Made by a program: the position numbers and the translations under genes. This document shows positions 11,959 through 38,791 of a stretch of 40,315 nucleotides of DNA, in pieces. The DNA is from Granulicella sp. Its GTDB lineage: Bacteria > Acidobacteriota > Terriglobia > Terriglobales > Acidobacteriaceae. Position 1 is the first letter of the stretch; every line of letters begins with the position of its first letter. The stretch spans positions 1 through 40,315 of the forward strand of contig DAHWOF010000089.1 in NCBI GenBank assembly GCA_027335345.1, given 5' to 3'. The notes under the pieces are model-generated. The model made no database searches and had not been told where the DNA came from. It worked only from the letters and a program-made list of their open reading frames with translations.

Positions 11959-12705
11959 CTATCCCGCCGTTTCCATCTCGCGCAGATGCTTCAACCAGGT
12001 CAGAAGCTGATCAATCTCCATCTGCGAGCGCAGATAGTAGCTGGCCTTGGTCTGCTTCTTCTTGCCGATGCGGACCGCGACCACCTCTCCTTCCAGACCA
12101 AAGGCGTCTTCGTCGTTCTCATCGTCGCCCAGATACAAGACCCGGTTGCAGCCCAGGCGGTCCCACTCGGCGGCCACAGCGTCGGCTTTGTTGGGAGCGC
12201 CATCGGCCACAAGATTCACCACCTTCTTGCCGCCGAAGGCCCGAACCTGATTCAACTTGGCCACGGCGGAGGCAATCCGGCGCAGCGACTGCGCGGGCCG
12301 CGAAGACTGGCGATAGTGGACCGCCAGGGACGTTCCCTTGTCCTCCACCCAGACGCCGGGAAGGTCTCCAATCTCGGCTTCCAGCATCTTCTTCCAGTGC
12401 CTTATGCGGTGGTCTTCATGCTTCCTGCCGTCCGCCTGAGCCCCGTGGTTGCCAAAGATGCCGGCCAGGGGAATGCCCTTCAGCCGCTGAAGAACATCTT
12501 CTCGCTTCCTGCCCGAGACCACAATGCACGGATAGAGCGACGCCACGCGCCTGAGCAGTCTTCGCGTGGAGCCGCGCATCCGGGCCATGCGGGGGTTATC
12601 CACAATGGGAGCCAGCGTGCCGTCGAAATCAAAGGCGCACAGGGTACGGTCCTGGGCCAAACTCTTCACAACAGGTATGGATGTCTTGGATAGGAGATAC
12701 TTCAT
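11959..12705 (-). CDS. otsB: Trehalose-6-phosphate phosphatase
   Basis: A 248-residue HAD-superfamily phosphatase that removes phosphate from trehalose 6-phosphate. HAD motif I is DFDGTLAPI (nucleophile D26, second D28), motif II is VVSGRKRED, and motif IV is GDDENDEDAF near residue 195. FGNHGAQ matches the trehalose-phosphatase cap region. ATG 12705 lies 2 bases after the otsA stop, so the two are translationally coupled. An in-frame extension to 12807 lies wholly inside otsA and is not used. Two-gene order otsA-otsB gives the complete OtsAB route from UDP-glucose and glucose 6-phosphate to trehalose. Confidence 0.95.
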   Translation of the reverse strand: MKYLLSKTSIPVVKSLAQDRTLCAFDFDGTLAPIVDNPRMARMRGSTRRLLRRVASLYPCIVVSGRKREDVLQRLKGIPLAGIFGNHGAQADGRKHEDHRIRHWKKMLEAEIGDLPGVWVEDKGTSLAVHYRQSSRPAQSLRRIASAVAKLNQVRAFGGKKVVNLVADGAPNKADAVAAEWDRLGCNRVLYLGDDENDEDAFGLEGEVVAVRIGKKKQTKASYYLRSQMEIDQLLTWLKHLREMETAG

Positions 12706-12707
12706 GG

Positions 12708-14957
12708 TCAAAGGTTGGTACCCACGGGAATACGTTCCGCCAGGCGCCCGGAGAGCCGCTCCTGACTGCGCAGGTGCGCGGCATCCACAAGCATCTTTCC
12801 CGCCCACCGATAAACATTGAAACGGCCAATCATGGAGCGCATCGCCTGCATGCGGTCTAGCTGCTCTTCCTCAGGCATGGAAAGCGCAGCGGCCAGGGCG
12901 TCACTGCTCTTTACCAGATCGTATGGATTCACAATCAACGCTTCGGTCAGCTCCTGCGCCGCTCCCGTAAACTCACTCAGAATCAGAACGCCGCGCAGAT
13001 CGGTGCGCGCGGCCACAAACTCCTTGGCTACAAGATTCATGCCGTCGTGCAAGCTGCTTACATAGCAAAGATCCGCGGCGCGATAGTAGCGGAAGACCTC
13101 AGGCGGCTCATGATGAGAACGCAGCAGGACGACGGGGCGATAGTCTTCCGCGCCGAATCGATCGTTGATGCGCTCGGCCAGCAGTTCAACCGCCTCATTC
13201 AGATCCTTGTACCGGGTGATCTTGGTGCGGCTGGGTTCTGCAAGCTGAACAAAGGTAAAGCGTCCACGAAACTTCGGATAGCGCTCCAGCAGCATCTCCA
13301 CCGCCGCCAGCCGCTCTTCAATGCCTTTGGTGTAGTCCAGGCGGTCAACGCCAAGACCCAGCAGGGCATCCGGCTTCAAGCCAAGCTCCTGGAACACTCT
13401 TGCTCGGCACTCTTCAGGCGCCGGCGACATCTCCACCCAATGCACGGGCCACTCCAGGGAGATGGGATACGGCCGGACCAGCGTCCTTTGCCCGTGCATG
13501 ATCACCGCATTCTGTTCTCTGTCGCGTCTGGTCTCCAGATAGCGGTCCACCGAGTCCAGAAAGTTGTTGCAGTGGAGCTGGGTGTGGAAGCCAACGATGC
13601 TGCTGCCCAGCAGCCCCTCCAGGATTTCGTTGTGCCAGGGGCAGATGCCCATTCGCTCCGCGTTCGGCCATGGAATGTGCCAGAAGGCGATGATGGTCGC
13701 CGCCGGCATGCGCTTCCGAATCATGGCCGGCGCCAGCGCAAAGTGGTAGTCCTCCACCATGATGATGGGGTCTTCGGAGTCCACTTCCTCGCACACCGCG
13801 TCAGAAAACTTCTGATTCACCTGCTTGTAGTACTCCCAATCTTCCGCGCGAAAGGTGGGACGCGTGTGGGCGATGTGACATAGCGGCCAAAGCCCCTCAT
13901 TGGAGAAGCCGTAATAATGTCCCTGCTGCTCCTCTTCGCTGAGCCAGATGCGGCGTATGTGGTAAGACTCCTCCTCCGGTGGAACCCGCACGTGATCGCT
14001 GCGATCCACCGTCTCTCGATCGGCGTTGCCACTGCCGTGGGCCACCCATACGCCGGAGCAGGCGCGCATGATCGGCTCCAGCGCCGTCACCAGACCGCTG
14101 GCCGGATGCTGTACTTCGATCCCGCCATCTTCTCCTCGAATATGGCTATAGGGTTCGCGATTGGCAAGAATCACAATCTTCTCGCCGTGCAGATTGCGAT
14201 TCAGAATCTGCCTCAGCCGGTCCGCCGTCCACTGTCCGGGCAGGTCCTCGCGCTCGTCGGCCATGCGCGCAATCAGCTCGCGCACATCGCTCAGGATGGG
14301 CTGAAACTCACGCGGCTGTTTCTTGGCCCCGCCGTGCAGCAGCTTGCGTACCTCCGTGCTCCAGTCGTCGCGGACCCGCCGGGCAACCAGCAGCGGAACG
14401 CCGAAGGCCAGCACCGCAAGAAAACCAAAGACAATCAGCAGAAAGGTCTGCGCTCTCGCCTCGCGACGCTGAATGTAGCTGAGGTCATGGGCAAGGATCA
14501 CAAAGCCCAGAATCTGCCCCTGCATGATCACCGGCATGGCCGCAACGTACACCCGCCCGGTCGGCAGCGTGGCGATGGTGCTCCACTGCTGCAGCTTCGG
14601 ATTCGTGTCGCCCGCAGCCGTGCCCGCGGCGCGCACCCAGGCTCCCAACGCCTGGCAACGAAAGACCTCCGGAAGGTCCGGCGTCATGGACCGGGTTGTC
14701 AAATCAACATTGCAGGCCGCAACTCCAATCACGTGCTGGTTGCGATCAATGGCTATCAACCGATTCTTCAGGCCATCGGGATCGTACCAGGCATCGGCCA
14801 GCGACCGCGTCGCGCTCACCATCGCAAGCCGAGCATGCTCACTGACGTCTCGCTCAAACCATTCGCGCGTTGTGGTCTGCACCACTCCGGACACTGTCCA
14901 GGTCAACAACGCAAGGGCTACCAGCAGGCCGAGGATGAACCTCGCCAATCGCGTCAT
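12708..14957 (-). CDS. otsA: Membrane-anchored trehalose-6-phosphate synthase with periplasmic domain
   Basis: A 749-residue protein, against about 470 for plain OtsA. Helix 1 (about 5-27), a 140-residue extracytoplasmic region (28-170) with two Cys (C82, C101), and helix 2 (171-193) precede a charged linker and a GT20 catalytic domain (about 258-740). The stretch GQILGFVILAHDLSYI before helix 2 resembles the end of Cache-type sensor domains. Catalytic features look intact: ILANREP, EDYHFALAP, IPWPNAE, GVDRLDYTKGIEERL (Arg and Lys for the donor phosphates) and HDGMNLVAKEF. It should make trehalose 6-phosphate at the inner membrane face. A glucosylglycerol-phosphate synthase is less likely given the adjacent otsB. 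No Shine-Dalgarno precedes ATG 14957, and a perfect TATAAT ends 7 bases before it, so the transcript may be leaderless. Confidence 0.93.
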   Translation of the reverse strand: MTRLARFILGLLVALALLTWTVSGVVQTTTREWFERDVSEHARLAMVSATRSLADAWYDPDGLKNRLIAIDRNQHVIGVAACNVDLTTRSMTPDLPEVFRCQALGAWVRAAGTAAGDTNPKLQQWSTIATLPTGRVYVAAMPVIMQGQILGFVILAHDLSYIQRREARAQTFLLIVFGFLAVLAFGVPLLVARRVRDDWSTEVRKLLHGGAKKQPREFQPILSDVRELIARMADEREDLPGQWTADRLRQILNRNLHGEKIVILANREPYSHIRGEDGGIEVQHPASGLVTALEPIMRACSGVWVAHGSGNADRETVDRSDHVRVPPEEESYHIRRIWLSEEEQQGHYYGFSNEGLWPLCHIAHTRPTFRAEDWEYYKQVNQKFSDAVCEEVDSEDPIIMVEDYHFALAPAMIRKRMPAATIIAFWHIPWPNAERMGICPWHNEILEGLLGSSIVGFHTQLHCNNFLDSVDRYLETRRDREQNAVIMHGQRTLVRPYPISLEWPVHWVEMSPAPEECRARVFQELGLKPDALLGLGVDRLDYTKGIEERLAAVEMLLERYPKFRGRFTFVQLAEPSRTKITRYKDLNEAVELLAERINDRFGAEDYRPVVLLRSHHEPPEVFRYYRAADLCYVSSLHDGMNLVAKEFVAARTDLRGVLILSEFTGAAQELTEALIVNPYDLVKSSDALAAALSMPEEEQLDRMQAMRSMIGRFNVYRWAGKMLVDAAHLRSQERLSGRLAERIPVGTNL

Positions 14958-14962
14958 GTTTC

Positions 14963-14971
14963 TATTATATA
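14963..14971. promoter_or_regulatory. Overlapping divergent -10 elements between otsA and GH15
   Basis: The entire gap between the two start codons is 15 bases. On the minus strand TATAAT (14969-14964) is a perfect -10; on the plus strand TATTAT (14963-14968) or TATATA (14966-14971) could serve GH15. No good -35 is visible on either side. Both predicted starts fall at or next to the start codons. Confidence 0.55.
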
Positions 14972-14972
14972 A

Positions 14973-16766
14973 ATGGGACTGATGAGCCTGCCCGGGAAAA
15001 TGCGAATTGAAGACCTAGGACTGATCGGAAACTGCCAGTTCTCTGCGTTGATCCACAAAAGCGGCGAAATTGTCTGGTGCTGTCTCCCTCGCTTCGACTC
15101 CGAACCGATCTTCTCGACTCTGTTGGATCAGGAAGAGGGCGGCTGCTTTCGCATCGGGCCGGCGAACGGAGAGATGGGCACACAAGCCTATGTGCCCAAT
15201 ACCAACATTCTGGAAACCACCTTCCATACGGACACGGGGTCCTTCAAAATCATCGACTTCGCTCCCCGTTTCCTGCACTACGATCGCACCTTCCGGCCCA
15301 AGCAGTTGTACCGGATCCTGGAGCCGATCTCCGGCGCGCCGCGTATCGAGATCGTCTGCGCGCCAAAACTGGGCTGGTCCAAGGCTCAGCCGAAGACCGT
15401 CGAAGGCTCCCACCATCTGCGCTTTCAAGGATTCGACACCGAACTGCGGCTGACCACAGACATCTCTCTCTCTTACTTGAACGGCAGGCCCTTCACGCTC
15501 ACCGGCCGCCAGCACATGATCCTGGCCTGGGGAGCGCCCATTGAAGAACCCGTCGCCCCACTGTGCGAACGGTTCCTGAATGAGACCACCCGCTACTGGC
15601 AACGCTGGGTAAAACAGTGCGAGATTCCGCCCATGTTCCAGAAAGAGGTAATCCGCTCAGCCCTGGCGCTGAAGCTGCATTGCTTTGAGGATACCGGAGC
15701 CATCATCGCCGCCATGACCACCTCCATCCCGGAGTCGCCCGAGGGCGGCCGCACCTGGGACTATCGCTACTGCTGGCTGCGCGACTCCTACTATGTGCTC
15801 AGCGCCTTCGGGTTGCTCGGCCAGTTTGAGGAACGCGAGCAGTTCGTCCAGTACCTGCTGAATGTGGCCGGAGGCGCTCCGGACCTGAACCTTGCTCCTC
15901 TTTATCGAGTCGATGGCACCAGCAACCTCGACGAATCCATCCTTGAACATTGGGCCGGCTACAACGGCATCAAGCCGGTGCGCATCGGAAACGGCGCCGC
16001 GCTGCACTCTCAGAACGACATCTTTGGAGAGATGGTCATGGCCTTGGCGCCGGTCTTTCTGGATGAGCGCATGAGTGCGGAGCGCTCACCCGCAGCCCTG
16101 CGTCTGATGGAAGGATTGGCGCGCAAGGCCATCTCCGTCTCCGGCAAGCCCGATGCAGGCATCTGGGAGTATCGCACCGAGTGGCAGCCGCAGACCTTCT
16201 CCAATCTGATGTGCTGGGCCGCGGCGGACCGCATGGGCAAGATCGCCGATCTGCATGCGCCGGAGCATGCCGCCGAGTTTCACGCCGCCGCCGATCGCAT
16301 TCATGCTGAGGTACTGGCCAACTCATGGAACGCAAAGCTCAACAGCTTTGTCGGCCACTACGGCGGCGAGGACCTGGATGCTTCGCTGCTGCAGATGGTT
16401 CAGTTGCGCTTTCTTCCTCCCGGCGATCCAAGGATTGTCAGCACCATCGAGAAGATCCATAAAGACCTGGCGCTCGGCGATTGGCTGCAACGCTACAGCT
16501 TGAACGACGGATTCGGCAAACCCTCCGTCGCCTTTGTCATCTGCGCCTTCTGGCTGATTGAGGCGCTGGCCACCATCGGTCGGCAGGCAGACGCCAGAGC
16601 GGTCTTCCAGCGAATCTATGCCACCCTGTCGCCCCTCGGCCTTCTGGCCGAGGACTACGATCCCAGAGAGAAGCGCATGTGGGGCAACTTCCCCCAGACC
16701 TACTCTCACGTCGGTCTGATTCACGCCGCCTTCGCCGCCTCACCCCGTTGGGCGGAGGTGCTGTAG
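14973..16766 (+). CDS. GH15 glucoamylase/trehalase-like glycoside hydrolase
   Basis: A 597-residue cytosolic (no signal peptide) GH15 enzyme. The N-terminal beta-domain begins RIEDLGLIGNCQFSALI...FDSEPIFSTLLD. The catalytic (alpha/alpha)6 barrel carries WDYRYCWLRDSYY, then GIWEYR (about residues 396-401, general acid Glu) and LLAEDYDP...GNFPQTYSHVGLIHAA (about 556 on, candidate base Glu). GH15 members cleave alpha-glucosidic bonds in maltodextrin or, in several actinobacteria and archaea, in trehalose. Being divergent from otsAB across 15 bases makes a trehalase role attractive, but this is inference. The start is uncertain: ATG 14973, 14982 or 15000 are all in frame, and none has a clear ribosome site. 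Confidence 0.9.
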   Translation: MGLMSLPGKMRIEDLGLIGNCQFSALIHKSGEIVWCCLPRFDSEPIFSTLLDQEEGGCFRIGPANGEMGTQAYVPNTNILETTFHTDTGSFKIIDFAPRFLHYDRTFRPKQLYRILEPISGAPRIEIVCAPKLGWSKAQPKTVEGSHHLRFQGFDTELRLTTDISLSYLNGRPFTLTGRQHMILAWGAPIEEPVAPLCERFLNETTRYWQRWVKQCEIPPMFQKEVIRSALALKLHCFEDTGAIIAAMTTSIPESPEGGRTWDYRYCWLRDSYYVLSAFGLLGQFEEREQFVQYLLNVAGGAPDLNLAPLYRVDGTSNLDESILEHWAGYNGIKPVRIGNGAALHSQNDIFGEMVMALAPVFLDERMSAERSPAALRLMEGLARKAISVSGKPDAGIWEYRTEWQPQTFSNLMCWAAADRMGKIADLHAPEHAAEFHAAADRIHAEVLANSWNAKLNSFVGHYGGEDLDASLLQMVQLRFLPPGDPRIVSTIEKIHKDLALGDWLQRYSLNDGFGKPSVAFVICAFWLIEALATIGRQADARAVFQRIYATLSPLGLLAEDYDPREKRMWGNFPQTYSHVGLIHAAFAASPRWAEVL

Positions 16767-17289: not shown

Positions 17290-18822
17290 GTGTCAGGAAT
17301 ATATTGTCAAGATCTGGTATTCGAGCCGGCTTCTGCTGAAAACGGCTCGCCTTCGCTGGCTGAGGTGATCTCGGCCTTATCCTTTGCTCTGGATCTGACC
17401 GAAGGCGCCGTGCCGGGGCATGCTCTGCGCAGTTGTCTGCTCGGTATGCGGTTGGGGCTGGAAATCGGCTTATCCGATGTCGAACTGGCCGACCTCTATC
17501 ACGCCCTCCTGCTGAAAGATGTCGGCTGCAGCAGCAACGCTGCGCGCATGTGCCAGATCATCGGCGGCGGTGACGATCGTGCGGTGAAGGCCGGCGTAAA
17601 GCTCGAAGACTGGACGCGGCCTTATCAGCCGCGCCTTTCCGCGCTGCGTCTGCTGTGGAGCAACGTGTTGCCGGATGCGAACCCGGCGCGCCGGGCGGCG
17701 CGCATCGTGCAGATTGGACTCGCGCAGCACCGTAACAACGAAGAGATGATTCAGTTGCGTTGCGACCGTGGTGCGAGCATCGTTCGCAAAATCGGCATGA
17801 GCGAACAAACGGCGCTGGCTGTGCGCAGTCTTGACGAGCACTGGGACGGCAGCGGCTATCCGCAACGGCTGCGGGGAACAGCGATATCTCCGCTCGCGCG
17901 TGTCATGGCCGCAGCGCAGCACCTGGATGTCTTCGCGAGCGAGCGCGGCCCTGAACAGGCCATGTTGGTTCTGCGAGAGCGCGACGGGCGTTGGTTCGAT
18001 CCCGAGGTGGTGAAGGCCGCCGAATCCCTGCGCCGGCGGGGCGCCCTGTGGCCGCAGTGTCTACCCCAGGAAGCACAAACCGCCGCAGAGGCGGAACAAT
18101 GTGCACGGTCCGCTGTGATCGATCTTTCTCCCGGTGAGGCGCGGCGAATCTCCGCAGCGCACATCGACTCAATCTGTGAGGCATTTGCCGAGGTAGTGGA
18201 CGCCAAGTCTTCTTATACGTTTCGGCACTCCGTTGGCGTTACGGATGTGGCTTCCCTCATCGCGAATGCCATCGGATTCAACCCAGAGCGGAAGCGTCTG
18301 GTCTATCGTGCAGCTTTGCTGCATGATTTGGGCAAACTCTCTGTTTCCAATCGCATTCTCGACAAGCCCGGAAAACTGGACGATGCGGAATGGTTTGTCA
18401 TGCGGGAGCATCCCAGGCTCACTCGCGTGATTCTCGGTCACGTAGAACAGTTTCGAGAATTGGCGTATATCGCGGGCGCTCATCACGAAAAGCTGGATGG
18501 CACGGGGTATCCCGACCGTCTGAGCGCCGAAGATCTCTCCCTTGAGGCGCGTCTCATAGGCGTTGCGGATGTGTACGGCGCGCTGACCGAGGATCGTCCC
18601 TACCGCCGTGGATTAAGCGCCCATGAGGCACTCAAGATCATGGAGCGCGATGTACCCGCCAAACTGGACAGGAACTGCTTTGAGGCACTGGCTTCCCTTG
18701 TGCAGGGCGACGCTGAGAACGAGCCGCTCGTGAAGTCGGAGAGCATGGCGCAGACGCGTCAGATGGACGCGGCGCCGGTCGCTGTACTGGCCGAGGCCCG
18801 GCTGCCGGCACAAGTGGCTTGA
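17290..18822 (+). CDS. Tandem HD-GYP-type protein with degenerate first half
   Basis: A 510-residue soluble protein. The C-terminal half is a full HD-GYP module: HDLGKLSVSNRILDKPGKL (HD at residues 345-346), HH at 398-399 and EKLDGTGYPDRL (GYP near 406). Such domains usually hydrolyse cyclic di-GMP. The N-terminal half repeats the plan in decayed form: LLLKDVGCSS has Lys76-Asp77 where HD should be, and DEHWDGSGYPQRLRG near 185-193 retains a GYP-like loop. It may be a non-catalytic, dimerising or sensing copy. The start is GTG 17290 with GGAG seven bases upstream. No receiver or membrane segment is present, and no cyclase lies nearby. Confidence 0.88.
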   Translation: MSGIYCQDLVFEPASAENGSPSLAEVISALSFALDLTEGAVPGHALRSCLLGMRLGLEIGLSDVELADLYHALLLKDVGCSSNAARMCQIIGGGDDRAVKAGVKLEDWTRPYQPRLSALRLLWSNVLPDANPARRAARIVQIGLAQHRNNEEMIQLRCDRGASIVRKIGMSEQTALAVRSLDEHWDGSGYPQRLRGTAISPLARVMAAAQHLDVFASERGPEQAMLVLRERDGRWFDPEVVKAAESLRRRGALWPQCLPQEAQTAAEAEQCARSAVIDLSPGEARRISAAHIDSICEAFAEVVDAKSSYTFRHSVGVTDVASLIANAIGFNPERKRLVYRAALLHDLGKLSVSNRILDKPGKLDDAEWFVMREHPRLTRVILGHVEQFRELAYIAGAHHEKLDGTGYPDRLSAEDLSLEARLIGVADVYGALTEDRPYRRGLSAHEALKIMERDVPAKLDRNCFEALASLVQGDAENEPLVKSESMAQTRQMDAAPVAVLAEARLPAQVA

Positions 18823-28053: not shown

Positions 28054-29403
28054 TCATGCTCTTCGCGAGAGAGCCGGTAGCCGGACGGTCGCTCGAGCGC
28101 CGTCCGCATCCTCTCGGTTGACCAGAGAGACCTCTCCGCCGTGAGCGCGGGCAATCTGCTGGGCCAGAACAAGGCCAATGCCGCTACCGACCGGTTTGGT
28201 CGTGTAAAAGGGCACGAACAGGTTCTCCGGGTTGGCAATGCCCAAGCCGCAGTCCTCGATCACAACTTGCACCGCCGTTCCTTCCAGAGCCCAGGCGACG
28301 CGCACGGGTTCACGCCGATGGGCAAGCGAGGCGTCCACAGCGTTGGTCAGCAGATTGATGAGCATCTGCTCAAGTTGGTCGGGATCGGCCTCCAGAACGA
28401 CGGCGGAGCCGGCCTCGACTTGAATCGAAAGCCGCTGTTCCAGCAACGCCACCCGTTCGATCAAGGACGCAAGCGCCACGTGCTGAAGGCGCGGCGCCGG
28501 CAACTGCGCCAATCGCCGGTAAGACTCGACAAAGCGATGCAGGGCGTCGGCGCGGCTCTCGATGACGCCAAGGCCCCGGCGCAGGTCGTCGCGAACCTCA
28601 TTCTCACCACTCCCCTCGCCAACCCTCGCCCGCAGGCTGCCCGCAATGGACTTGATCGGCGCAAGGGAGTTCGCCAGCTCGTGGCCAAGCACGCGAATCA
28701 GCCGCTTCCAGGCCGTACGCTCCTCTTCCTGAAGCGGTCCGCTAACATCAGCCAGCACTAGCAGCGTATGCGGCGATCCTTCCTGCCGGAACACCCGCTT
28801 GTGTACCAGCCAGCGCGCCGGTGCAGAGCCGTAGGAGAGGATCGCCTGGTCCGGTGCGGCCAGCAGGCTGTCGAGATGAAGTTCAGCCGCAGCACAGCCA
28901 AGGCACTGTGCGCTGGGACGGCCAACCAGCTTTATACCGGCGTCGTTCAGCAGTTGCAGCCGATTCTCGCGATCGAAGGCGAAGAGCGGCGTGCGCATCA
29001 CCTCCAGAACTCGCGCCAGCAGCGCGGCGGCCTCGAGCGATTGAATGCGCTGTCTTTGGAACAGATCGGAAAGTCCATTGATCTCGGCAGCGAGTTCACC
29101 CAGCGCATCGCCGGCCGTAGCCCCGCGCGCCCGAAAAGAGTAGTCCCCCTCCCGCAGCGACAGCACCACATTCGAGAGGGTCTGCAGTGGGCGAACGAAG
29201 CTCTGGACTAGCGTAGAGGCGACAAGGATGAGGTAGAACAACAGGCAGATGCCGGCAAGCGATGCCAAACCCGCGTCCAGGCGGAGAGCGAAGGCGAGAA
29301 CCCCGAGCAAGAGAACCGCCGGTAGTGAGAGAAGCGCACAGAGAAGCCATGCCCGGCGAATTACTCGCCGCGCGCGCGGGCCAGATTTGGCCTCATAAGC
29401 CAT
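28054..29403 (-). CDS. Membrane sensor histidine kinase, NtrY/NtrB-like
   Basis: A 449-residue kinase. Two adjacent helices (about 18-38 and 45-67) with almost no periplasmic loop suggest sensing within the membrane or cytoplasm. A HAMP-like segment (about 68-120) and a PAS-like region (125-225, FAFDRENRLQLLNDAG) follow. The H-box RVLGHELANSLAPIKS carries the phospho-accepting His. ATPase motifs are N (INLLTNAVDA), G1 (EDCGLGIA), F (FVPFYTTK) and G2 (GSGIGLVLAQQ). Its ATG overlaps the end of the response regulator by 11 bases, so the two are co-translated. It probably phosphorylates that NtrC-type regulator in response to a signal relevant to the adjacent exporter. Confidence 0.93.
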   Translation of the reverse strand: MAYEAKSGPRARRVIRRAWLLCALLSLPAVLLLGVLAFALRLDAGLASLAGICLLFYLILVASTLVQSFVRPLQTLSNVVLSLREGDYSFRARGATAGDALGELAAEINGLSDLFQRQRIQSLEAAALLARVLEVMRTPLFAFDRENRLQLLNDAGIKLVGRPSAQCLGCAAAELHLDSLLAAPDQAILSYGSAPARWLVHKRVFRQEGSPHTLLVLADVSGPLQEEERTAWKRLIRVLGHELANSLAPIKSIAGSLRARVGEGSGENEVRDDLRRGLGVIESRADALHRFVESYRRLAQLPAPRLQHVALASLIERVALLEQRLSIQVEAGSAVVLEADPDQLEQMLINLLTNAVDASLAHRREPVRVAWALEGTAVQVVIEDCGLGIANPENLFVPFYTTKPVGSGIGLVLAQQIARAHGGEVSLVNREDADGARATVRLPALSRRA

Positions 29404-30757
29404 ACTTTTCCATGCGCCTGTAGAGCGCTGCGCGGCTCAATCCCAGAGACTCCGCTGCCTGACTGATGTTGTTGTCGCAGCGCCGCAGCGTCTTGCGGAT
29501 CAGCCCAGCCTCCATCTCCTCGATGCTCATGCTATCGAACGAGAGCGTATCCCGGGCCGCAGCGCCGATGGAGAGATTCTCCTGCTGAATCTCCGCTCCC
29601 GTTGCAAGAAGCAACGCTCGCTCGACGGCGTGTTCCAGCTCCCTCACATTGCCCGGCCACGCATACTGCATCATCCACTGCATCGCATCCGCAGAGAAGC
29701 CGGTTACCTCCTTGCGATAGCGGGCGCGGAACCGGGAGAGAAAATGTCCCGAGAGCAGCGGGACGTCTTCGCGGCGGTCGCGTAGCGCAGGCAGACGAAT
29801 CTCCACCGTGTTGATGCGAAACAGCAGATCCTCGCGGAAGTTGCCGGCTTTCACCTCTTCCGGCAGTTGAGCATTGGTGGCGCTCAGCAGACGCACATCC
29901 ACGCGCCGCGTCTGCGATGACCCGACGCGTTCCAACTCGCCCGTCTCCAGCACGCGCAGCAGCTTCGCCTGCTGGCGCAGCGGCACATTGGCAATCTCGT
30001 CCAGGAACAGCGTGCCGCCGCCAGCCATCTCAAACCGGCCTACGCGGTCCGAGCGTGCGTCGGTAAAGGCGCCCTTCACATGGCCAAAGATCTCGCTTTC
30101 AAAGGTGCCTTCGGGCAACCCGCCTGCATTCACCGTCACCAGCGGCATGCTGGCTCGCGGCGAGGCGGCGTGGAGCAGGCGCGCCACAATCTCCTTACCC
30201 GTGCCGTGCTCTCCGGTGATCAGCACGTTGGCTTCAGAGGGTCCAATCCGCGCAATCAGGTCAAGCACCGGCTGCATCGACGCGGCGGAGGCGATAAACT
30301 CCGGTACGCCTTCACCGCGCAGGATGCGATTCTCCATCTCGAGCTGCCGAGTGCGGCGCAGCGCCCTCCGTAGTTCAGCATGAACCCGGATCATCGAGAC
30401 CAGCCGCTCGTTCTCCCACGGCTTTTGAAGAAAGTCGCGCGCGCCGCGCTTGATGCACTCCACCGCCAGCTCGACGTTGCCCCAGGCCGTCATCACGATC
30501 ACAGGGAGCCGCGCGTCAAACTCTCGGATTCGCGCCAGCAGATCCAGCCCCTCCGTGCCGGAAGTGGTATCGCGGGTGTAGTTCAGGTCGATCAGCACAA
30601 CGTCATAGTCGCTCTCGCTCACCATCTCCATGAACAACCTTGGCGAACGCGCGCCGTCAACGTCGATCCCTTGCGGCATCAGCAAAAGATCCAGAGCCTC
30701 CAGAATGGACGGCTGATCGTCGCCGGCCAGAACCCGGATCCTGTCCTGCCTGTTCAA
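29393..30757 (-). CDS. Sigma-54-dependent NtrC-family response regulator
   Basis: A 454-residue activator. The receiver domain (about 7-125) has the phospho-acceptor Asp in VLIDLNYTRD. The AAA+ domain (about 153-385) has Walker A GEHGTGKE, the sigma-54 contact loop GAFTDA in place of the usual GAFTGA, Walker B GTLFLDEI, and the sensor/R-finger block NFREDLLFRINTVEIRLPALRDR. The C-terminal Fis-type helix-turn-helix ends NISQAAESLGLSRAALYRRMEKYGL. It starts with TTG at 30757, supported by AGGAGG nine bases upstream. It follows the TolC-like gene by 188 bases on the same strand and likely activates a sigma-54 promoter of the exporter operon. Confidence 0.95.
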   Translation of the reverse strand: MNRQDRIRVLAGDDQPSILEALDLLLMPQGIDVDGARSPRLFMEMVSESDYDVVLIDLNYTRDTTSGTEGLDLLARIREFDARLPVIVMTAWGNVELAVECIKRGARDFLQKPWENERLVSMIRVHAELRRALRRTRQLEMENRILRGEGVPEFIASAASMQPVLDLIARIGPSEANVLITGEHGTGKEIVARLLHAASPRASMPLVTVNAGGLPEGTFESEIFGHVKGAFTDARSDRVGRFEMAGGGTLFLDEIANVPLRQQAKLLRVLETGELERVGSSQTRRVDVRLLSATNAQLPEEVKAGNFREDLLFRINTVEIRLPALRDRREDVPLLSGHFLSRFRARYRKEVTGFSADAMQWMMQYAWPGNVRELEHAVERALLLATGAEIQQENLSIGAAARDTLSFDSMSIEEMEAGLIRKTLRRCDNNISQAAESLGLSRAALYRRMEKYGL

Positions 30758-30945
30758 AAAGACGCGCCTCCTTCTCAGTTGCAGGGCCGAGCTTCCGGCT
30801 GCATCGCTTTATCCGGCTGCACCGCCTTGTGCGCAGGCGCCGCTCTGGGCTGTGCCTGGCTCTGCTCGGACGGCATTCCCCTTTATCCTAGCCGATGCCA
30901 CCGCAACTTCGGCAGTCGCTGTGCAAGACGATGTGTGGGCGCCGA

Positions 30946-33006
30946 TTACGGAGCGTGCGACACTACGCCGGATTTTGCATCGTCAATTGAGACTCCGGTC
31001 TGCTGCAACGTCTCTCCGGTAGCCCGGTCGATATCTACTTTGGCCTTTTCATAGGCGGTCTGTGCGTCGACGAACGCGGACTGGGCTACGGCGAGGTTGT
31101 GTTGCGCCACCAGGGTGTCATAGGCGGATTTGGCGCCAAGTTTCCGCTCCTCCTCCGTGATGTCAAAAGTGCGCTGCAACAGGTCGCGCGCCTTTTGCGA
31201 TGCGTCCACACGCGCCTGCGCCTGCTGCAGCGCGAACAGCGCATTGCGCACGTCAAAACGGATGCTCTTCTGCTGCTCCTCCGAGGTGATCTGGCTCTGG
31301 CGGTACTGTAGAACAGCGCGGAACTGGTCGGCTTTGGCGACGCGGTTACGGAGATTGATCTGCAAGGTGAGCCCGGCCTGATATTCCGGCGAGGAGTAGT
31401 TGAAGATGTCCTCGAACATGCCGGGAAAGCCGGTGGGGAGCACGGTGCTGCACAGGTCGGCGCCAAGGTTGCAATATTTGTTGACAGGGCCCGCCGTGCC
31501 GGCGCCGGCGTACAAGCCGTATACGTTGAGCTTGGGCAGGAGCTCGCTGTTGATGTCTTTCAATGCTTGCCGCTGTACCTCAGCCTGCATCTTGTAGATG
31601 CCGACCTCAGGCCGGTTCTTTTCCGCCTCGGCGATGAGATCGTCGATCGGCTTCGAGGCGTTGGGGTCAGGGGCTCCGACACGATCTATTGGAACTACCG
31701 GCATCTCATCGATCAACGGATCGTCGCTTCTGGTGATGGCGTTTTTGAGCAGGAGTTCGTTGCGGCGGAGATTGGCGCGCGAGACGGTAAGGTCGCCTTC
31801 GCTGTTGGCGACATCCGACTCATCGGTCAGGATCTGCAGGGCCGGAATGGCCCGCAGTTGGAGCTGCTTCTGGTCTATGGCGAGAGTCCGCTGGGCGAAG
31901 GCCAGCGCGTGCTGCTTGATCTGCTCATCCTGATAGGCGCTTACCAGATCCCAGTAGATATTTTCGATTTGGGTGACGGTGGCGGTGACCTGCGCCCTAA
32001 AGGCGAGGTTCGTGATCTGGTTGTTGCGCTTGGCGATGCGGATGAAGCGCTCGTTGGTGGAGAGGCCAAAGCCAGCCAGCAGGTGTTGGGTGATCACGAT
32101 TTCGAAGTTGGAGTACAGCTCAGGGTTGATGGCGTTGTACGGCGAGTTGCTGGCGATACGCTGCCCGAGGTATTGCGCGGAGACGTTGGTTCCCAGCGGG
32201 AAGGACTGGCTGAAGTTCGCCAAGCCTTGAATGGTGTTGTTCTTGAGGATTGGCGTACCCACCAGAGCCTCGTTGCTCTCTTGGACGACGGTGTGGTCAT
32301 CGTAACCTCGGAAGGTGAGGTAGGGATCAAAGGAGGAAACGGCGGTTCCGGCGCCCAGGGTTGAGGTTACGATGCCGCCGTTGCCGGCAGAGAATCCGGC
32401 TGACCCTCCACCCCCCGAGGAAGTCGCAAAGCCGCCCTGCGTGGAGGACTGCACGATGGCGGTATCGACGCCATTGGCCGCCCCGCCCGCCCTGGTGCGC
32501 AGGATATCGGTCTTGGCGATGGGAAAGTTGTAGCGGAAGTACGCCAGATCGAGATTGTTCTCGATTGCCAGAGCGATGGCGTCGTGCAGCGAGATATAGA
32601 GCTTTCCGTTGATTATGAGGCGATCGAGGCGCGGCGAGTTTGTAAGATTGAGCGGAGGAGCGGTGCTGGGCATGTAGGGTGAAAGCGGATTCCGCGAATG
32701 TGGCAGTTCTACATGAAAGGGCTGCTGGGGCTCCAGCGCGCCCTGCAGTGCCTGCTGCATCTGCTGCGCCAGCGTGGGTGGCGGCGCAGCGGCTTCGTTG
32801 GGGGCTGGCGCTGGAGCCTCAGGGGTGGATGGTGCGGTTGGCGAGTTTGCAGCCGCAGATTGCATCTGCGCCTGTCCGGCGGCAAGGGCCAAGGTTACGG
32901 GCAAGAGCAGAAGCGCCGCCCATGCTTGACGACAGAAACGATTTGCTTTGGAAAGACGAAGAATCACGCGTGGTCTCACTGGAGATTGGGAAGGGATGCC
33001 GATCAC
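30946..33006 (-). CDS. TolC-family outer membrane efflux protein
   Basis: A 686-residue protein. A signal peptide (hydrophobic AWAALLLLPVTLALAAG, about 28-44) precedes a Pro/Ala-rich spacer (to about 110). The outer membrane efflux domain follows, with ISLHDAIALAIENNLDLAY, Gly/Ser-rich insertions, and repeated coiled-coil heptads (for example ENIYWDLVSAYQDEQIKQHALAFAQ and FALQQAQARVDASQKARDLLQ). It is longer than E. coli TolC (about 490 residues) because of the N-terminal spacer and the insertions. Start GTG 33006 overlaps the ATPase stop in GTGA, with AGGAG five bases upstream, so it is translationally coupled. It would supply the outer membrane duct for the adaptor and permease encoded upstream. 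Confidence 0.93.
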   Translation of the reverse strand: MIGIPSQSPVRPRVILRLSKANRFCRQAWAALLLLPVTLALAAGQAQMQSAAANSPTAPSTPEAPAPAPNEAAAPPPTLAQQMQQALQGALEPQQPFHVELPHSRNPLSPYMPSTAPPLNLTNSPRLDRLIINGKLYISLHDAIALAIENNLDLAYFRYNFPIAKTDILRTRAGGAANGVDTAIVQSSTQGGFATSSGGGGSAGFSAGNGGIVTSTLGAGTAVSSFDPYLTFRGYDDHTVVQESNEALVGTPILKNNTIQGLANFSQSFPLGTNVSAQYLGQRIASNSPYNAINPELYSNFEIVITQHLLAGFGLSTNERFIRIAKRNNQITNLAFRAQVTATVTQIENIYWDLVSAYQDEQIKQHALAFAQRTLAIDQKQLQLRAIPALQILTDESDVANSEGDLTVSRANLRRNELLLKNAITRSDDPLIDEMPVVPIDRVGAPDPNASKPIDDLIAEAEKNRPEVGIYKMQAEVQRQALKDINSELLPKLNVYGLYAGAGTAGPVNKYCNLGADLCSTVLPTGFPGMFEDIFNYSSPEYQAGLTLQINLRNRVAKADQFRAVLQYRQSQITSEEQQKSIRFDVRNALFALQQAQARVDASQKARDLLQRTFDITEEERKLGAKSAYDTLVAQHNLAVAQSAFVDAQTAYEKAKVDIDRATGETLQQTGVSIDDAKSGVVSHAP

Positions 33007-33701
33007 CGGGTCTCCTTTGTCGCGGTGTGCAGGGTTTCATCGCGCTCCATCCAGCCGTCGCGCAGCTCCACGAGGCGCTTGCCGTAGCGCGCGTTGTCGT
33101 CGCAGTGCGTGACCTGCGCGATGGTGGTCCTCTGGCGGTTGGTCTTACGGAAGAGTTGCATGATCTCCCGGCCTTGCTCTGAGTGCAGGTTGCCGGTGGG
33201 TTCGTCGGCCAGGAGCAGCGCCGGCGCATGGACCACCGCTCGCGCAATGCCGACCAACTGCTGCTGTCCGCCGGAGAGCGGCGAAGGGAAGATGTCTTTC
33301 TTGGCCACGATCTGAGAGCGGTCCGGGACTTCGGCCACCATGCCGGCTCGATCTCTCGCCGCTAGGTTCTTGTGCGAGAGCGGTAGCTCGATATTCTCAG
33401 CGACGGTCAGGTTGTCGAGCAGGTGATAGCTCTGGAAGACCATGCCGATGCGCTGCCGGGCCAGGTCGGCGCGTTGCCTTCGGTTCAGCGCATGCACTGC
33501 CGTCTCGCCCGACCAGTACTCTCCTAGCCATCCGTCGTCGAGCATAGCCGGAATGTTGAACAGCGACGACCTTCCCGCGCCCGACGGCCCCATCACGGTG
33601 ACGAACTCGCCCTCATGAATCGTAAGATCGATGCGGCGTAGCACCCACTCCTCGGTGTGCCCGCTCTTGTAGCTTCGTTCCACGTTCTTCAGTTCAATCA
33701 T
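33003..33701 (-). CDS. ABC ATPase (LolD/MacB-type) with altered Walker A
   Basis: A 232-residue ABC subunit. Q-loop IGMVFQSYHLLDNLTV, signature PLSGGQQQ, Walker B LLLADEP and the H-loop QVTH are all present. Walker A reads GPSGAGRSS (residues 38-46): Arg44 replaces the invariant Lys. The codon is AGG where AAG would give Lys, a single-base difference (plus-strand position 33571). The stretch after it, NIPAMLDD, also departs from the usual NxLGxLD. Family members with GNLHSEQG in place of GNLDS and with QQQL are, as far as I recall, normal for this branch. It is preceded by AAGGA and lies 19 bases after the permease gene. ATP hydrolysis may be reduced. Confidence 0.9.
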   Translation of the reverse strand: MIELKNVERSYKSGHTEEWVLRRIDLTIHEGEFVTVMGPSGAGRSSLFNIPAMLDDGWLGEYWSGETAVHALNRRQRADLARQRIGMVFQSYHLLDNLTVAENIELPLSHKNLAARDRAGMVAEVPDRSQIVAKKDIFPSPLSGGQQQLVGIARAVVHAPALLLADEPTGNLHSEQGREIMQLFRKTNRQRTTIAQVTHCDDNARYGKRLVELRDGWMERDETLHTATKETR

Positions 33702-33720
33702 GCTCTGTTTCCTTCAAACA

Positions 33721-36168
33721 CTACTCATTGCGCAGAGCCTGCATGGGATCGATGGAAGCTCCATGTCGGGCAGGTAGCACGCAACCCAAAGTTCCCACAA
33801 GCAAAAGCACGGCGACCGCGCCGATCGCTATCCCCGGGTTGTACGGACTCACCGCGAAGAGTTGGCTGCTAATCAGACGCACGGACACAAAGGCCACGGC
33901 CACGCCTACAGCCGCCCCTGCCAGAACTGGCTGAAGTCCCTCGCCGATCACCAGACGGTAGATCCCTGAGCGCTGCGCACCCAGCGCCAGCCGCAAACCG
34001 ATCTCCTGCTGGCGCTGGGCGACCGAATAAGCGACCACGCCATAGATACCCAGACCGGCCAACAGCAACGCGCTCGTCGCAAACAGCAGGAGCAGGTCCA
34101 TCTCGAAGCGGCGGGTGGCCACCGAATCGGCGGCGATCCCGCCCAGCGTCCGCACCACGGGCACAGAGACCTCCGCGTCTACGCTCCAAATCGCGCTTCG
34201 CAGCTCTTCGGCCATCGCATCAGGATCCTGGCGAGTACGCAAAGCGATGCTGCTCATGCCATCGCATCGCACCCAGTAAGGTACGTACACCATCATGGGA
34301 TCTGGATGTGCCAGAGAGATCGTGCGAGCATTGCGGACAACGCCGATCACCGTAAAGTCTTGCTCAAAGGCGCCAAGATGAAACTGCCTGCCGACGGGGT
34401 CGACTCCAGGCCAGAGCGTGCGCGCCGTCAGCTCCGAGACCAGCGCGTAGTTCTTGCCCTCGTCTGACAAGGTCAGATCGCGTCCGGCGACAACCGGCAG
34501 ATGAACGACATCGAGATAGCCGGGGCTTACCCAGCGGAAGTGTTCCTTGCGGAGCTGAGACCATGGCCGCGCGTCACCTGCGACGCGAACCATGTCGATC
34601 CAGATGTCGCCGCCAAGCGGCGGTACGCTGACCAGGCCCGCTTGAGACACACCCGGAAGCCGGCGCAAGCGCCCCAGAACCCGCCGGTAAAACCCCTCGA
34701 CGGCTTGCGTACTGGCGTACGGCTTGCCGGGCAGATCGATCTCGGCGGTAATTACGTGATCGGCGACGAAGCCGCGATCGTTGCTCATCAGCCGCGTCAG
34801 GCTCGTGACGAGCAGTCCGGTGAACAGCACCAGCGCCACGCTGATGGCCGCTTCCGCCGCGACGAGCGAGCGGCGTAGGTGCTTGCTGCGGCGCGATTCC
34901 CCTGTCTGCCGCGAGTCCTTGCGCAATACGTCGGCCGGATTTGCTCGCGCGCCGATCCATGCGGGGATGCCGCCAGCCAGAAGCGTCGCCGCAACAGCAA
35001 GCGAGACTGCGCAGGCGGCTCCGGCCCAGTCCAGATGCAGCGCTCCCCGAAAGTCAAGCGCGGGCGGTAGATAGCGCTGCATCCATGGCACGAGCGTGGA
35101 TGCCAGCAATACTCCGGCCACTCCGCCCAGGCTGGCCAGCGCCGCTGACTCGCACAGGGACGAGCGCAGCATCTCGGCGAAGCTTGCGCCTAGAGCGGCG
35201 GCGATAGACATCCGACGCTGCCGGGCGATCGACCTCGACAGCAGCAGATTGGCGATGTTGATGCACCCAACCAGGAGCAAGCCTGCTACGGCAGCCAGCA
35301 AGAGGAGCAGGGACCTGCGATTGTTGCCGACCAGCGCTTGCTGAAGTGGCGTCAACGTCGCGGAGAGCGCGCTACCTTCGTCAGCAGGAAGCGCCACTGA
35401 AATCCTGTGCTGCAGGGCGTTGATCTCTGCGCTGGCCTGTGCCAGGGAGACGCCAGGCTTGAGCCGCGCCAGCCCGAAGTAGTTGAAGTCGTCCATTGCT
35501 TCCGCGAGTTGTTTGTCGGTGAATGCAAGCGGGATCAGCGCCTCCGCTGGATGGGCGGCATCAGCGTTCGGAACCGCGATGGTGGTCACACGCGGCAGAT
35601 GGAACGAAGCAGGCATCACACCGATGATTGTGTATGGAAAGCCGTTCAGTGTGACCATTTTCCCCACAACATGTGGATCGCTCCCGAACTGCGTCCGCCA
35701 GAGATCGTTCAGCAGGACGATCTCACGGTCGTGTCCAGGTTTCGCCTCCTGTTCAGTAAATGCGCGGCCGAGCTGCGGCAGCACGCCAAGGACTGGGAAG
35801 ATCCCTGGCGTGGCGCTGACCACCTCCACCTTCATCGGATGGCTACCCAGACCCAACGGCTCCGAATCCTCCTCCATCACCGCGAATGACTGAAAGCTGT
35901 GCGCATTTCGCTTCCACACGGCAAAGTGGTTGGCATTTATCGGCAACGTGGGATAGATGTCCCGGAACTCTGCAACCTGCTCTTCAGCCACCACGAGCCG
36001 CCTCGGGTGCGGATACGGCAGCGGCTTGAGCAACACGTCATAGACCAGCGTAAAGATGGCCGTCGTCGCCCCAATGCCTAACGCCAGCGTGAGCACCGCG
36101 GTCAAGGCAAACCCCGGCGCGCGGCGCAGTTGCCGCGACGCATAGCGCAGATCGCTGAGCAGCGTCAT
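33721..36168 (-). CDS. MacB/FtsX-type ABC permease, duplicated (ADOP family)
   Basis: An 815-residue permease starting LLSDLRYASRQLRRAPGFALTAVLTLALGIGATTAIF, the hallmark of the acidobacterial duplicated orphan permease family. It has two MacB-periplasmic-core plus FtsX units: helices near 20-42, then a periplasmic domain, a cluster of helices about 285-395, a further helix near 440-462, a second periplasmic domain, and three helices near the C-terminus (about 685-805). The family is called orphan because members usually lack adjacent ATPases. Here ATPases flank it on both sides, and its ATG overlaps the upstream ATPase stop in ATGA. It probably acts as a mechanotransmission-type exporter (MacB-like) with the adaptor and TolC-like protein; the substrate is unknown. 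Confidence 0.93.
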   Translation of the reverse strand: MTLLSDLRYASRQLRRAPGFALTAVLTLALGIGATTAIFTLVYDVLLKPLPYPHPRRLVVAEEQVAEFRDIYPTLPINANHFAVWKRNAHSFQSFAVMEEDSEPLGLGSHPMKVEVVSATPGIFPVLGVLPQLGRAFTEQEAKPGHDREIVLLNDLWRTQFGSDPHVVGKMVTLNGFPYTIIGVMPASFHLPRVTTIAVPNADAAHPAEALIPLAFTDKQLAEAMDDFNYFGLARLKPGVSLAQASAEINALQHRISVALPADEGSALSATLTPLQQALVGNNRRSLLLLLAAVAGLLLVGCINIANLLLSRSIARQRRMSIAAALGASFAEMLRSSLCESAALASLGGVAGVLLASTLVPWMQRYLPPALDFRGALHLDWAGAACAVSLAVAATLLAGGIPAWIGARANPADVLRKDSRQTGESRRSKHLRRSLVAAEAAISVALVLFTGLLVTSLTRLMSNDRGFVADHVITAEIDLPGKPYASTQAVEGFYRRVLGRLRRLPGVSQAGLVSVPPLGGDIWIDMVRVAGDARPWSQLRKEHFRWVSPGYLDVVHLPVVAGRDLTLSDEGKNYALVSELTARTLWPGVDPVGRQFHLGAFEQDFTVIGVVRNARTISLAHPDPMMVYVPYWVRCDGMSSIALRTRQDPDAMAEELRSAIWSVDAEVSVPVVRTLGGIAADSVATRRFEMDLLLLFATSALLLAGLGIYGVVAYSVAQRQQEIGLRLALGAQRSGIYRLVIGEGLQPVLAGAAVGVAVAFVSVRLISSQLFAVSPYNPGIAIGAVAVLLLVGTLGCVLPARHGASIDPMQALRNE

Positions 36169-36911
36169 GCTTCGGCCCCCGCTTCGGCCTCCGCCTCGGC
36201 TTCCTGCTCCAGCCTCTTCATCTCGCTTTCGCTGACGATCTTGCCGTCAAACAAGTGCAACTCGCGCTGGGCGTGGCGGGCGAAGCGCGGATCGTGCGTC
36301 ACCATGCAGATGGTTGCGCCGTCGCGATGCAGATCGCCCAGCAGGCGCATCACCGCCTCGCCGTTCTTTGAGTCCAGATTGCCCGTAGGCTCGTCGGCAA
36401 GCAGGATCGAGGGTGAGCCGGCGAGAGCGCGAGCGACGGCCACGCGCTGCTGCTGGCCTCCGGAGAGCTGGGCCGGATAGTGCCTCATGCGATGCGCCAT
36501 GTTTACGCGTTCGAGCGCCTCTTTCACGCGCTTTTTCCGCTCCGCCGAAGGCATCCCGGCGCGATAGGTCAGCGGCAGCTCGACGTTCTCCTCCGCCGTC
36601 AGATCGCCGATCAGATTGAAGCTCTGAAAGATGAAGCCGATCTCCTGGTTGCGAATGCGGGATCGTTCACTAAAGCTCAGGCTCTCCACCGGCCTGCCGT
36701 TGAGCAGATAGCGGCCGCTGCTCGGGGTGTCCAGCAGGCCCAGAATCGACAGCAGCGTGGACTTGCCACAGCCCGAAGGGCCGCTCATGGCCACGTTCTC
36801 GCCGCGCGCAATGGCAAGATGAACGCCGGAGAGCGCGTGCGTCTCCACCTCATCCGTGTAGAAGACTTTGGTCAGGTCCTCAACCTCGATCAGCGTTCCG
36901 TTCGTCGCCAT
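36165..36911 (-). CDS. ABC ATPase, LolD/MacB-type, intact motifs
   Basis: A 248-residue ATPase with complete motifs: Walker A GPSGCGKST, Q-loop IGFIFQSFNLIGDLTAEEN, signature LSGGQQQRVAVARAL, Walker B ILLADEP, D-loop GNLDS, and H-loop MVTHDP. This is the LolD/MacB class that works with FtsX-type permeases. The C-terminus carries an alternating Glu-Ala tail (EQEAEAEAEAGAEA), encoded by a GC-rich simple repeat that could vary in length. ATG 36911 has AGGAG upstream; a longer frame to 36947 is possible. It lies 69 bases after the adaptor gene and overlaps the permease start by 4 bases. Confidence 0.94.
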   Translation of the reverse strand: MATNGTLIEVEDLTKVFYTDEVETHALSGVHLAIARGENVAMSGPSGCGKSTLLSILGLLDTPSSGRYLLNGRPVESLSFSERSRIRNQEIGFIFQSFNLIGDLTAEENVELPLTYRAGMPSAERKKRVKEALERVNMAHRMRHYPAQLSGGQQQRVAVARALAGSPSILLADEPTGNLDSKNGEAVMRLLGDLHRDGATICMVTHDPRFARHAQRELHLFDGKIVSESEMKRLEQEAEAEAEAGAEA

Positions 36912-36980
36912 TCTGTTCTCCTTTGCTCGGTGCTCCCTTGTCGGCAAGCCATTCGTCTTCGCACCCTCGCCGCTCCTGCG

Positions 36981-38249: not shown

Positions 38250-38317
38250 CGCCAGGGAAGCTGCACCGGAGGCGCCAAACCGGATAATCCGATAGGCGAC
38301 GAAAATCAATGCTTTAC

Positions 38318-38333
38318 CGCAAACGCCCCGCCC
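38318..38333 (-). promoter_or_regulatory. Candidate sigma-54 (-24/-12) promoter of the exporter operon
   Basis: On the minus strand the 16-mer GGGCGGGGCGTTTGCG has the essential GG and GC at the correct spacing and a full TTGC box, matching 8 of 11 consensus positions. A start near 38307 would give a leader of about 57 bases to ATG 38249. A second match (TGGCGCCTCCGGTGCA, 38277-38262) has the same spacing but would leave almost no leader. Confidence 0.3.
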
Positions 38334-38791
38334 CGTCTTTGCCCCAAAGCGTCCACTTTCAACAAACGCTGTTCGATTTCGGACAGTCCGGAGCAGCCGG
38401 CAGCAGGTCTCCCGCCCTGCTTCGGCGTCAAATACAATCCCAATCTCATGGAGGGAGAATGCCACCGCCTGGAACAGGAACTCGCCAAACAGCGCTACTG
38501 CAAATGTCCATGTCTGATGCGGCACAATCATGAGACCCAGCATGAAGAGACTGCCTACCACACTGTTGGCCAAAGAGCAGAACCGCAGGGCAAGCGTCTG
38601 TCGAAGATGGGGAAGAGAAAGCGACCAATGATTGCCGGAACGAATTCACCTGCACCGCCGGCGAGAAGAAGACATTTCTATCGAGGAGAAGATGGGGACA
38701 TTTCTAATGCGCTACGACACCCACAAGGAATAAAGCTTGAATCCTCCGAACTTCGCACGTAAACTTGTGCTGCACGCGAAAATGCACGCCT
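38334..38791. other. Gene-free, scar-like region upstream of the exporter and toxin-antitoxin pair
   Basis: No supported gene. GACATTTCTA occurs twice in direct orientation (38671-38680 and 38697-38706). A 22-base repeat (38566-38587) recurs near the window end. The composition changes from GC-rich to more A-rich around 38560-38760. Together these suggest insertion-sequence debris, but no transposase frame is intact. Confidence 0.45.
38566..38587 (+). repeat. 22-bp direct repeat, copy 1
   Basis: TTGGCCAAAGAGCAGAACCGCA. Copy 2 at 40291-40312 differs at one position (C to A at base 13). The two flank the toxin-antitoxin pair at a distance of about 1.7 kb. Confidence 0.7.

Follow-up and report, generated by a model that had tools for sequence, protein, structure and literature searches.

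A receptor-like GT20 protein of Granulicella sp., a probable trehalose-6-phosphate synthase with a predicted Cache-type ectodomain

The stretch of DNA analyzed here (the window, 40,315 nucleotides of contig DAHWOF010000089.1 from a Granulicella sp. assembly) carries on its reverse strand, at 12708-14957, an open reading frame (ORF) of 749 amino acids whose reading, Pfam matches and relatives point to a receptor-like GT20 protein and probable trehalose-6-phosphate synthase (TPS). In our best reading, this protein is a Cache-type receptor whose output is a biosynthetic enzyme. The frame starts with an ATG and contains no internal stop. Hydropathy places a first transmembrane (TM) helix at residues 8-26 (14880-14936), which is kept in the window's group of relatives, and a second at residues 173-191 (14385-14441). 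Between them lies an ectodomain of about 144 residues (residues 28-171, 14445-14876) with exactly two cysteines, Cys82 (14712-14714) and Cys101 (14655-14657), and behind them come a cytoplasmic linker (residues 192-259, 14181-14384) and the catalytic domain (residues 260-725, 12783-14180), all on the same strand. The preliminary description of this DNA had drawn the same succession of helix, extracytoplasmic domain of about 140 residues with two cysteines, helix and linker, and the layout was confirmed. A weaker hydropathy peak at residues 138-156, which also passes the threshold in L002, L003 and L008 and stays below it in the other relatives compared, was taken to reflect buried strands. The substrates of GT20 enzymes are cytoplasmic, which requires both ends of the protein to be inside; the positive charges preceding the first helix (MTRLAR) and following the second (ARRVR) are consistent with cytoplasmic termini.

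The catalytic domain was described as intact, and this is borne out by its match to PF00982 (393.4 bits against a cut-off of 32.5, E 1.8e-117), which covers positions 2-470 of the 473 in the profile. The motifs NRxP, GFSN-LWPL, DYH, HIPWP, VDRLDYTKG and DGMNLVAKE are recognizable in an alignment with the solved TPS structures 5jij and 5huv, 5jij having DYQ at the place of DYH, and their residues presumably take the usual donor and acceptor roles of the family. Among the best solved relatives, 17 of 18 are named TPS and the remaining one is a trehalose-6-phosphate phosphatase. The source genome (233 contigs, 85% complete) holds a single GT20 gene. Searches of this incomplete genome for TreY and TreS gave matches, none above the cut-off; one of the TreS-like matches is 46 residues long and near a contig end.

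To place the ectodomain, sensor-bearing GT20 relatives from Acidobacteriota were aligned in two groups, the window's group (A1, 22 rows) and its sister group (A2, 26 rows). The alignments omit L001, L037, L038, L039 and L054 (each a second copy of a gene that the alignments include), L004 and L033 (cut at contig ends), L060 (no GT20 domain) and L005 and L006 (no ectodomain). The two groups match over the whole N-terminal part (hhalign probability 99.6) and also over the ectodomain alone with the TM helices removed (probability 98.8, 125 columns, E 8.3e-17 for this single profile pair rather than for a database). The sister group links to Cache sensors: sCache_3_2 was found in 14 of its 26 members among matches listed to E 1 (best E 3.8e-7), and its ectodomain profile retrieved the extracellular Cache domain of WalK (5is1, E 1.2e-5). 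A combined profile, built from GT20 proteins only (30 rows picked by hand out of the 48 ectodomain rows to reduce redundancy), retrieved the same WalK structure at E 4.4e-4. PMC4822843 counts WalK among the Cache proteins. A separate search with sCache_3_2, which found matches in 8 of 31 genomes, was set aside and is not used as support.

The combined ectodomain profile also gave 36 matches in 31 of 199 Acidobacteriota genomes, kinases and other proteins included. Thirteen of these were judged not to be GT20 proteins and ten of the thirteen were scanned; two other matches, G258:C76 in a long frame and G154:C346 in a frame of 237 amino acids, count as candidates. The ten comprise eight histidine kinases, one GGDEF-EAL protein and one sCache_3_2 protein, the latter a frame of 285 amino acids (L126). 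In six of the kinases (L116, L118, L119, L120, L123 and L124) the match lies between two TM helices and is followed by HAMP; it covers nearly the full domain in L116 (5.3e-11) and L118 (2.7e-7). The L116 sensor independently matched dCache_1 at E 7.2e-6, which is below the cut-off of that family. In the two other kinases (L121, L122) and the GGDEF-EAL protein (L125) the match falls within a cytoplasmic PAS region; these matches are off target but agree with the relatedness of PAS domains to Cache domains.

A structure model of the window ectodomain, predicted from three sequences, shows, in a Cache-like order, two helices, a strand, further helices, three strands and a final helix, with a mean pLDDT (per-residue confidence) of 46 and a pTM (predicted TM-score) of 0.39. 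With this low-confidence model Foldseek found only three PDB matches at E 0.001 or better, all WalK ectodomains (TM-scores 0.50-0.53). Its top five matches were all WalK, followed by LuxQ, a PAS-type kinase domain, sporulation kinase D, CitA, DctB and chemoreceptor domains. We counted this result only because it agrees with the sCache_3_2 and WalK matches of the sister-group profile.

The two cysteines behave as a unit. Both are present in 21 of the 22 rows of the window's group and neither in the remaining one, no row having a single cysteine, and all 14 different sensor-bearing Pseudomonadota proteins that were read have both, 19 residues apart. The C-x18-C pair is therefore common to two phyla, Acidobacteriota and Pseudomonadota, and a disulfide between Cys82 and Cys101 is probable. 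The ectodomains of the sister group carry no cysteine (26 of 26).

The same layout was found in separate records of metagenome-assembled genomes (MAGs), at 98% (L002) and 89% (L003) identity, the nearest named records being Acidobacteria MAGs, and in another genome at 86% (L008); further relatives at 75% and 71% lie in other genomes. An assembly chimera or a chance ORF was rejected on account of this recurrence in separate MAGs and many genomes. In the window's Acidobacteriota family, 97 of 150 sampled genomes have a match to the protein; by our count, 60 of the 150 have one at E 1e-159 or better with an open frame of at least 598 amino acids. By identity these 60, which we count as enzymes of the anchored clade, are mostly of the sister-group type, only four (the window included) reaching at least 71% identity to the window protein, and the N-terminal part was read in 29 of the 30 family loci that were fetched, the other (L033) being cut at a contig end. 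With the N-terminal part as query, matches were obtained in 20 of 396 Acidobacteriota genomes, a count that includes L055 and L056, which were rejected as chance matches in frames overlapping other genes. Of 349 Pseudomonadota genomes sampled, three had a sensor-bearing GT20 protein, counting those matches with a tested locus. Within the order to which one of the three belongs, the ectodomain profile matched in 14 of 150 genomes, with GT20 in the same ORF in all 12 fetched loci. A search of plasmids gave 359 matching records, none spanning 80% of the query, of which the Aminobacter match alone was examined. Three anchored-type GT20 matches at 46-47% identity (G007:C25, G067:C70 and G066:C3) have open frames of 506-547 amino acids, one with an internal TAA, and may be soluble members of the clade.

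The ectodomain is under purifying selection and evolves faster than the enzyme. The ratio of nonsynonymous to synonymous substitution (dN/dS) for the ectodomain was 0.083 against L003, 0.123 against L008, 0.249 against L009, 0.261 against L010 and 0.166 against L040; for the GT20 domain it was 0.072, 0.070, 0.109 and 0.113 against the first four, the value for L040 not being computable. This selection, together with the cysteine pair shared across phyla, rules out a plain spacer as the main reading of the ectodomain. The preliminary description had set its sensor proposal against a plain anchor lacking a folded domain; the window protein appears not to be of that kind, and plain-anchor relatives do exist in Pseudomonadota.

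The organization of the protein suggests how it could work. Inserted in the membrane with both ends in the cytoplasm, it would expose a sensor of the single-Cache type held by the probable Cys82-Cys101 disulfide. A ligand or a condition of the envelope would alter the packing of a presumed Cache dimer, and the change would pass to the GT20 domain through the two TM helices and the linker, which in the sister group is HAMP and in the window protein is a shorter segment occupying the HAMP position. The two lobes of that domain must close on UDP-glucose and glucose-6-phosphate, and the synthesis of trehalose-6-phosphate could in this way be raised or lowered. The product of a coupled otsB-like gene would then convert trehalose-6-phosphate to trehalose, and the trehalase-like enzyme of an adjoining gene would remove it. 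We consider it somewhat probable that a signal at the ectodomain directly controls GT20 activity, as in a receptor-type enzyme. Osmolarity had been suggested as the signal, and nothing specific in the analysis singles it out.

Several results weigh against this reading. No convincing match to the Pfam Cache models was obtained in the window's group, where sCache_3_2 appeared in one of 22 members at E 0.02, and the profile of this group found no Cache structure in the PDB. Four of the six sensor matches in histidine kinases are weak, at 4.5e-5 to 3.9e-4, and extend over no more than the N-terminal portion of the profile, most of which is helical; this partial coverage slightly lowered our estimate for the Cache assignment. 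The mean pLDDT was 46 in both structure predictions, which used three sequences, and Foldseek cautions that models of low confidence yield meaningless matches. Of the checks proposed in the preliminary description, the profile search reached WalK through the sister-group and combined profiles and not through the window's group alone, and the structure prediction gave no confident model. The likeness to Cache sensors first noticed by eye is supported in a mostly indirect way by the sister-group profiles, the kinase sensors and Foldseek, and it is very likely that the window ectodomain is a single Cache-type domain, linked to the family by way of the sister group and the weak model. Weak Pfam matches on the N-terminal part (BioY, GAF_PdtaS, Adeno_E3B and similar) were below cut-offs and were taken as chance matches of hydrophobic or helical stretches.

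The linker, the enzyme and the gene neighborhood add further points against the receptor reading. A HAMP profile built from seven of the matched histidine kinases was not detected in the linker of the window's group (hhalign probability 0.4), and HAMP was rejected as the identity of the window linker by this failed match; a linker without HAMP counts against the simplest receptor picture. The same profile matched the sister-group linker with probability 95 (E 3.7e-8, 52 columns), where Pfam HAMP was found in 6 of 26 members among matches listed to E 1 (best 5e-4), and the linkers of the two groups matched each other with probability 32 over 22 columns only. The protein misses the curated equivalog cut-off for OtsA (TIGR02400, 413.0 against 564.85 bits), and neighbors resembling otsB or the GH15 gene were not found in the longer stretches of L145 and L147 (sister group) and L148 (a sensor-bearing Pseudomonadota locus). 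Finally, some relatives keep a TM helix and the enzyme with no sensor at all: 12 of 12 anchor-only proteins have exactly one TM helix and no loop of ectodomain size.

These anchor-only relatives suggest another explanation, in which the N-terminal part is an anchor or scaffold that holds the enzyme at the membrane, near a transporter, a stressed membrane or a partner, the Cache domain serving for dimerization or partner binding rather than for gating activity by a ligand. A tree of 80 GT20 domains, midpoint-rooted for drawing only, bears on this question; it omits L002 (a near-copy), L117 (a short GT20 match), L033, L060 and L062 (the same gene as L005). Sixty-eight of the 80 rows make up an anchored-type clade (support 100/99); the 12 outside it are other Pseudomonadota GT20 proteins, of which under half were checked for anchors. 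The clade contains one group with the sister group and five further Acidobacteriota proteins (89/81) and another with the window's group, the sensor-bearing Pseudomonadota proteins and the anchor-only proteins (95/99); L077, a long branch labelled classic, is placed inside the clade with uncertainty. All 12 anchor-only rows group together (100/99), and the three sensor-bearing Pseudomonadota rows join them with support of 100/99. Of the 12, two are named Mesorhizobium and one Aminobacter, the other nine coming from Pseudomonadota genomes (the loci include L064 and L068-L076), and the ectodomain profile did not match the two that were tested (L068 and L073). The simplest reading of this history would be a single loss of the sensor with retention of the anchor, and anchoring itself may be a function, as the anchor was kept in proteins that have no sensor. 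However, a Cache-like domain with a C-x18-C pair kept over two phyla under purifying selection would be needless for a pure anchor, and domains related to it are found on kinases. We regard the anchor or scaffold as a possible but rather unlikely alternative to direct control by an outside signal.

The identity of the product can be questioned separately, as the receptor model would stand, and the other readings would remain compatible, if the enzyme made a related glycoside instead of trehalose-6-phosphate. The protein also scores under the cut-offs for PRK14501 (465 against 634) and glucosylglycerol-phosphate synthase (310 against 569); we classed it as a GT20 protein and probable TPS, and not as an OtsA equivalog, because the TIGR02400 cut-off was missed. 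Moreover, a member of the sister group adjoins TreT_GT1 and DUF5752 genes, and an anchor-only relative adjoins GT4 and amylo-1,6-glucosidase genes. On the other side, the next gene in the window (11959-12705, reverse strand) encodes an otsB-like trehalose-6-phosphate phosphatase recognized by TIGR00685 (100.1 bits, above the cut-off of 68.05) and PF02358, its ATG lying 2 bp downstream of the GT20-gene stop. At least 9 of 26 sister-group loci have a same-strand, phosphatase-like match, and the naming of the solved relatives given above points the same way. The earlier assignment as a TPS is thus supported by the GT20 domain and the coupled otsB-like gene, but not at the level of an equivalog. 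With the trehalase-like neighbor added, these features suggest trehalose-6-phosphate as the product, and a different glycoside seems improbable.

It was also considered that the Cys82-Cys101 pair could act as a periplasmic redox switch, the state of the disulfide rather than a small ligand setting the activity. The joint retention or loss of the two residues in the window's group and their constant spacing in Pseudomonadota would agree with such a switch, but a purely structural disulfide would give the same pattern, and the sister group has the same architecture with no ectodomain cysteine, making the redox switch very unlikely. Trehalose-6-phosphate acts as an intracellular messenger in plants, and by analogy with receptor cyclases such as the Cache-GGDEF proteins, which convert an outside signal into c-di-GMP, an outside signal could produce it both as a messenger and as the precursor of trehalose, the coupled otsB-like enzyme ending the signal, an idea that we find highly doubtful.

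If direct control by the ectodomain is correct, a single protein would couple a surface signal to the synthesis of a stress-protective sugar, bypassing kinases, messengers and gene switches, and a biosynthetic glycosyltransferase would join the outputs of a very large bacterial sensor superfamily. The layout of TM helix, Cache domain (predicted in the window protein), TM helix, HAMP where present, and cytoplasmic enzyme is shared with Cache-GGDEF diguanylate cyclases and WalK-type Cache-HAMP histidine kinases, and WalK and some Acidobacteriota histidine kinases are the proteins matched by the sister-group and combined ectodomain profiles. The window protein differs from these receptors in its output, a GT20 biosynthetic glycosyltransferase, and in having no detectable HAMP. 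According to Upadhyay et al. 2016 (PMC4822843), the outputs of Cache proteins are, with the exception of SMP_2, known signal-transduction outputs. With OtsA the protein shares the full-length GT20 domain, the motifs and the otsB neighbor, whereas the membrane and sensor part of about 259 residues in front is additional. Compared with the anchor-only GT20 proteins of Pseudomonadota (Mesorhizobium, Aminobacter), which belong to the same clade and have one TM helix, only the window protein has the ectodomain. Its linker ends in a W-T-x-x-x-L-R-x-x-L stretch with a counterpart, W-S-P-x-x-L-R, before the GT20 domain in most anchor-only relatives. The clade offers a natural comparison of sensor, sensor with HAMP, and anchor only. 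No report of a sensor-fused or membrane-anchored bacterial TPS was found in the titles and abstract starts of the papers listed by searches of open-licence full-text literature, a body from which subscription journals are mostly absent; architecture databases may list the arrangement.

On the other side of the GT20 gene, domain scans identified a divergent GH15/TREH_N trehalase-like gene (14973-16766, forward strand; start ATG at 14973 or 14982). The two genes are oriented head-to-head and separated by 15 bp, or by 24 bp with the second ATG. Judged from its letters, the 15-bp spacer (14958-14972) carries TTATATAA at 14965-14972 as a -10-like element on both strands. TATAAT stands 6 bp upstream of the GT20 ATG and the same distance was seen in L003 (TATAAT) and L008 (TATAGT), the upstream region of L002 having been compared as well. 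The spacer looks like a shared bidirectional -10 element giving leaderless mRNAs in both directions. Spacers in more distant relatives appear longer.

The proteins of the window served as queries in a survey of neighbors in 66 loci; the flanks were mostly about 1.5 kb and the counts are lower bounds. The GH15 gene adjoins the GT20 gene in at least 12 of the 66 loci, always on the opposite strand, and all 12 (the window included) belong to the window's group. A phosphatase match was present in at least 18 of 66, among them the nine sister-group loci within short flanks. Of five longer stretches, L146 and L149 (window's group) have both neighbors. In L145 (2732-10621, sister group), genes for a DUF5752 protein and a TreT-type trehalose synthase (TreT_GT1) follow the GT20 gene and a phosphoketolase gene is divergent, perhaps indicating another trehalose route or another product. 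The four scanned neighbors in L148 have no tie to trehalose, and the anchor-only gene of the Aminobacter plasmid (L064) is accompanied by GT4, amylo-1,6-glucosidase and HAD-IIB hydrolase genes.

Elsewhere in the window, a gene for an HD_5 (HD-GYP-type) protein lies beyond the GH15 gene (17290-18822, forward strand). The region 28054-38573 encodes a sigma-54 response regulator and a histidine kinase, the latter matching HAMP weakly, next to a set of efflux genes (OEP, MacB/FtsX permease and HlyD) on the reverse strand.

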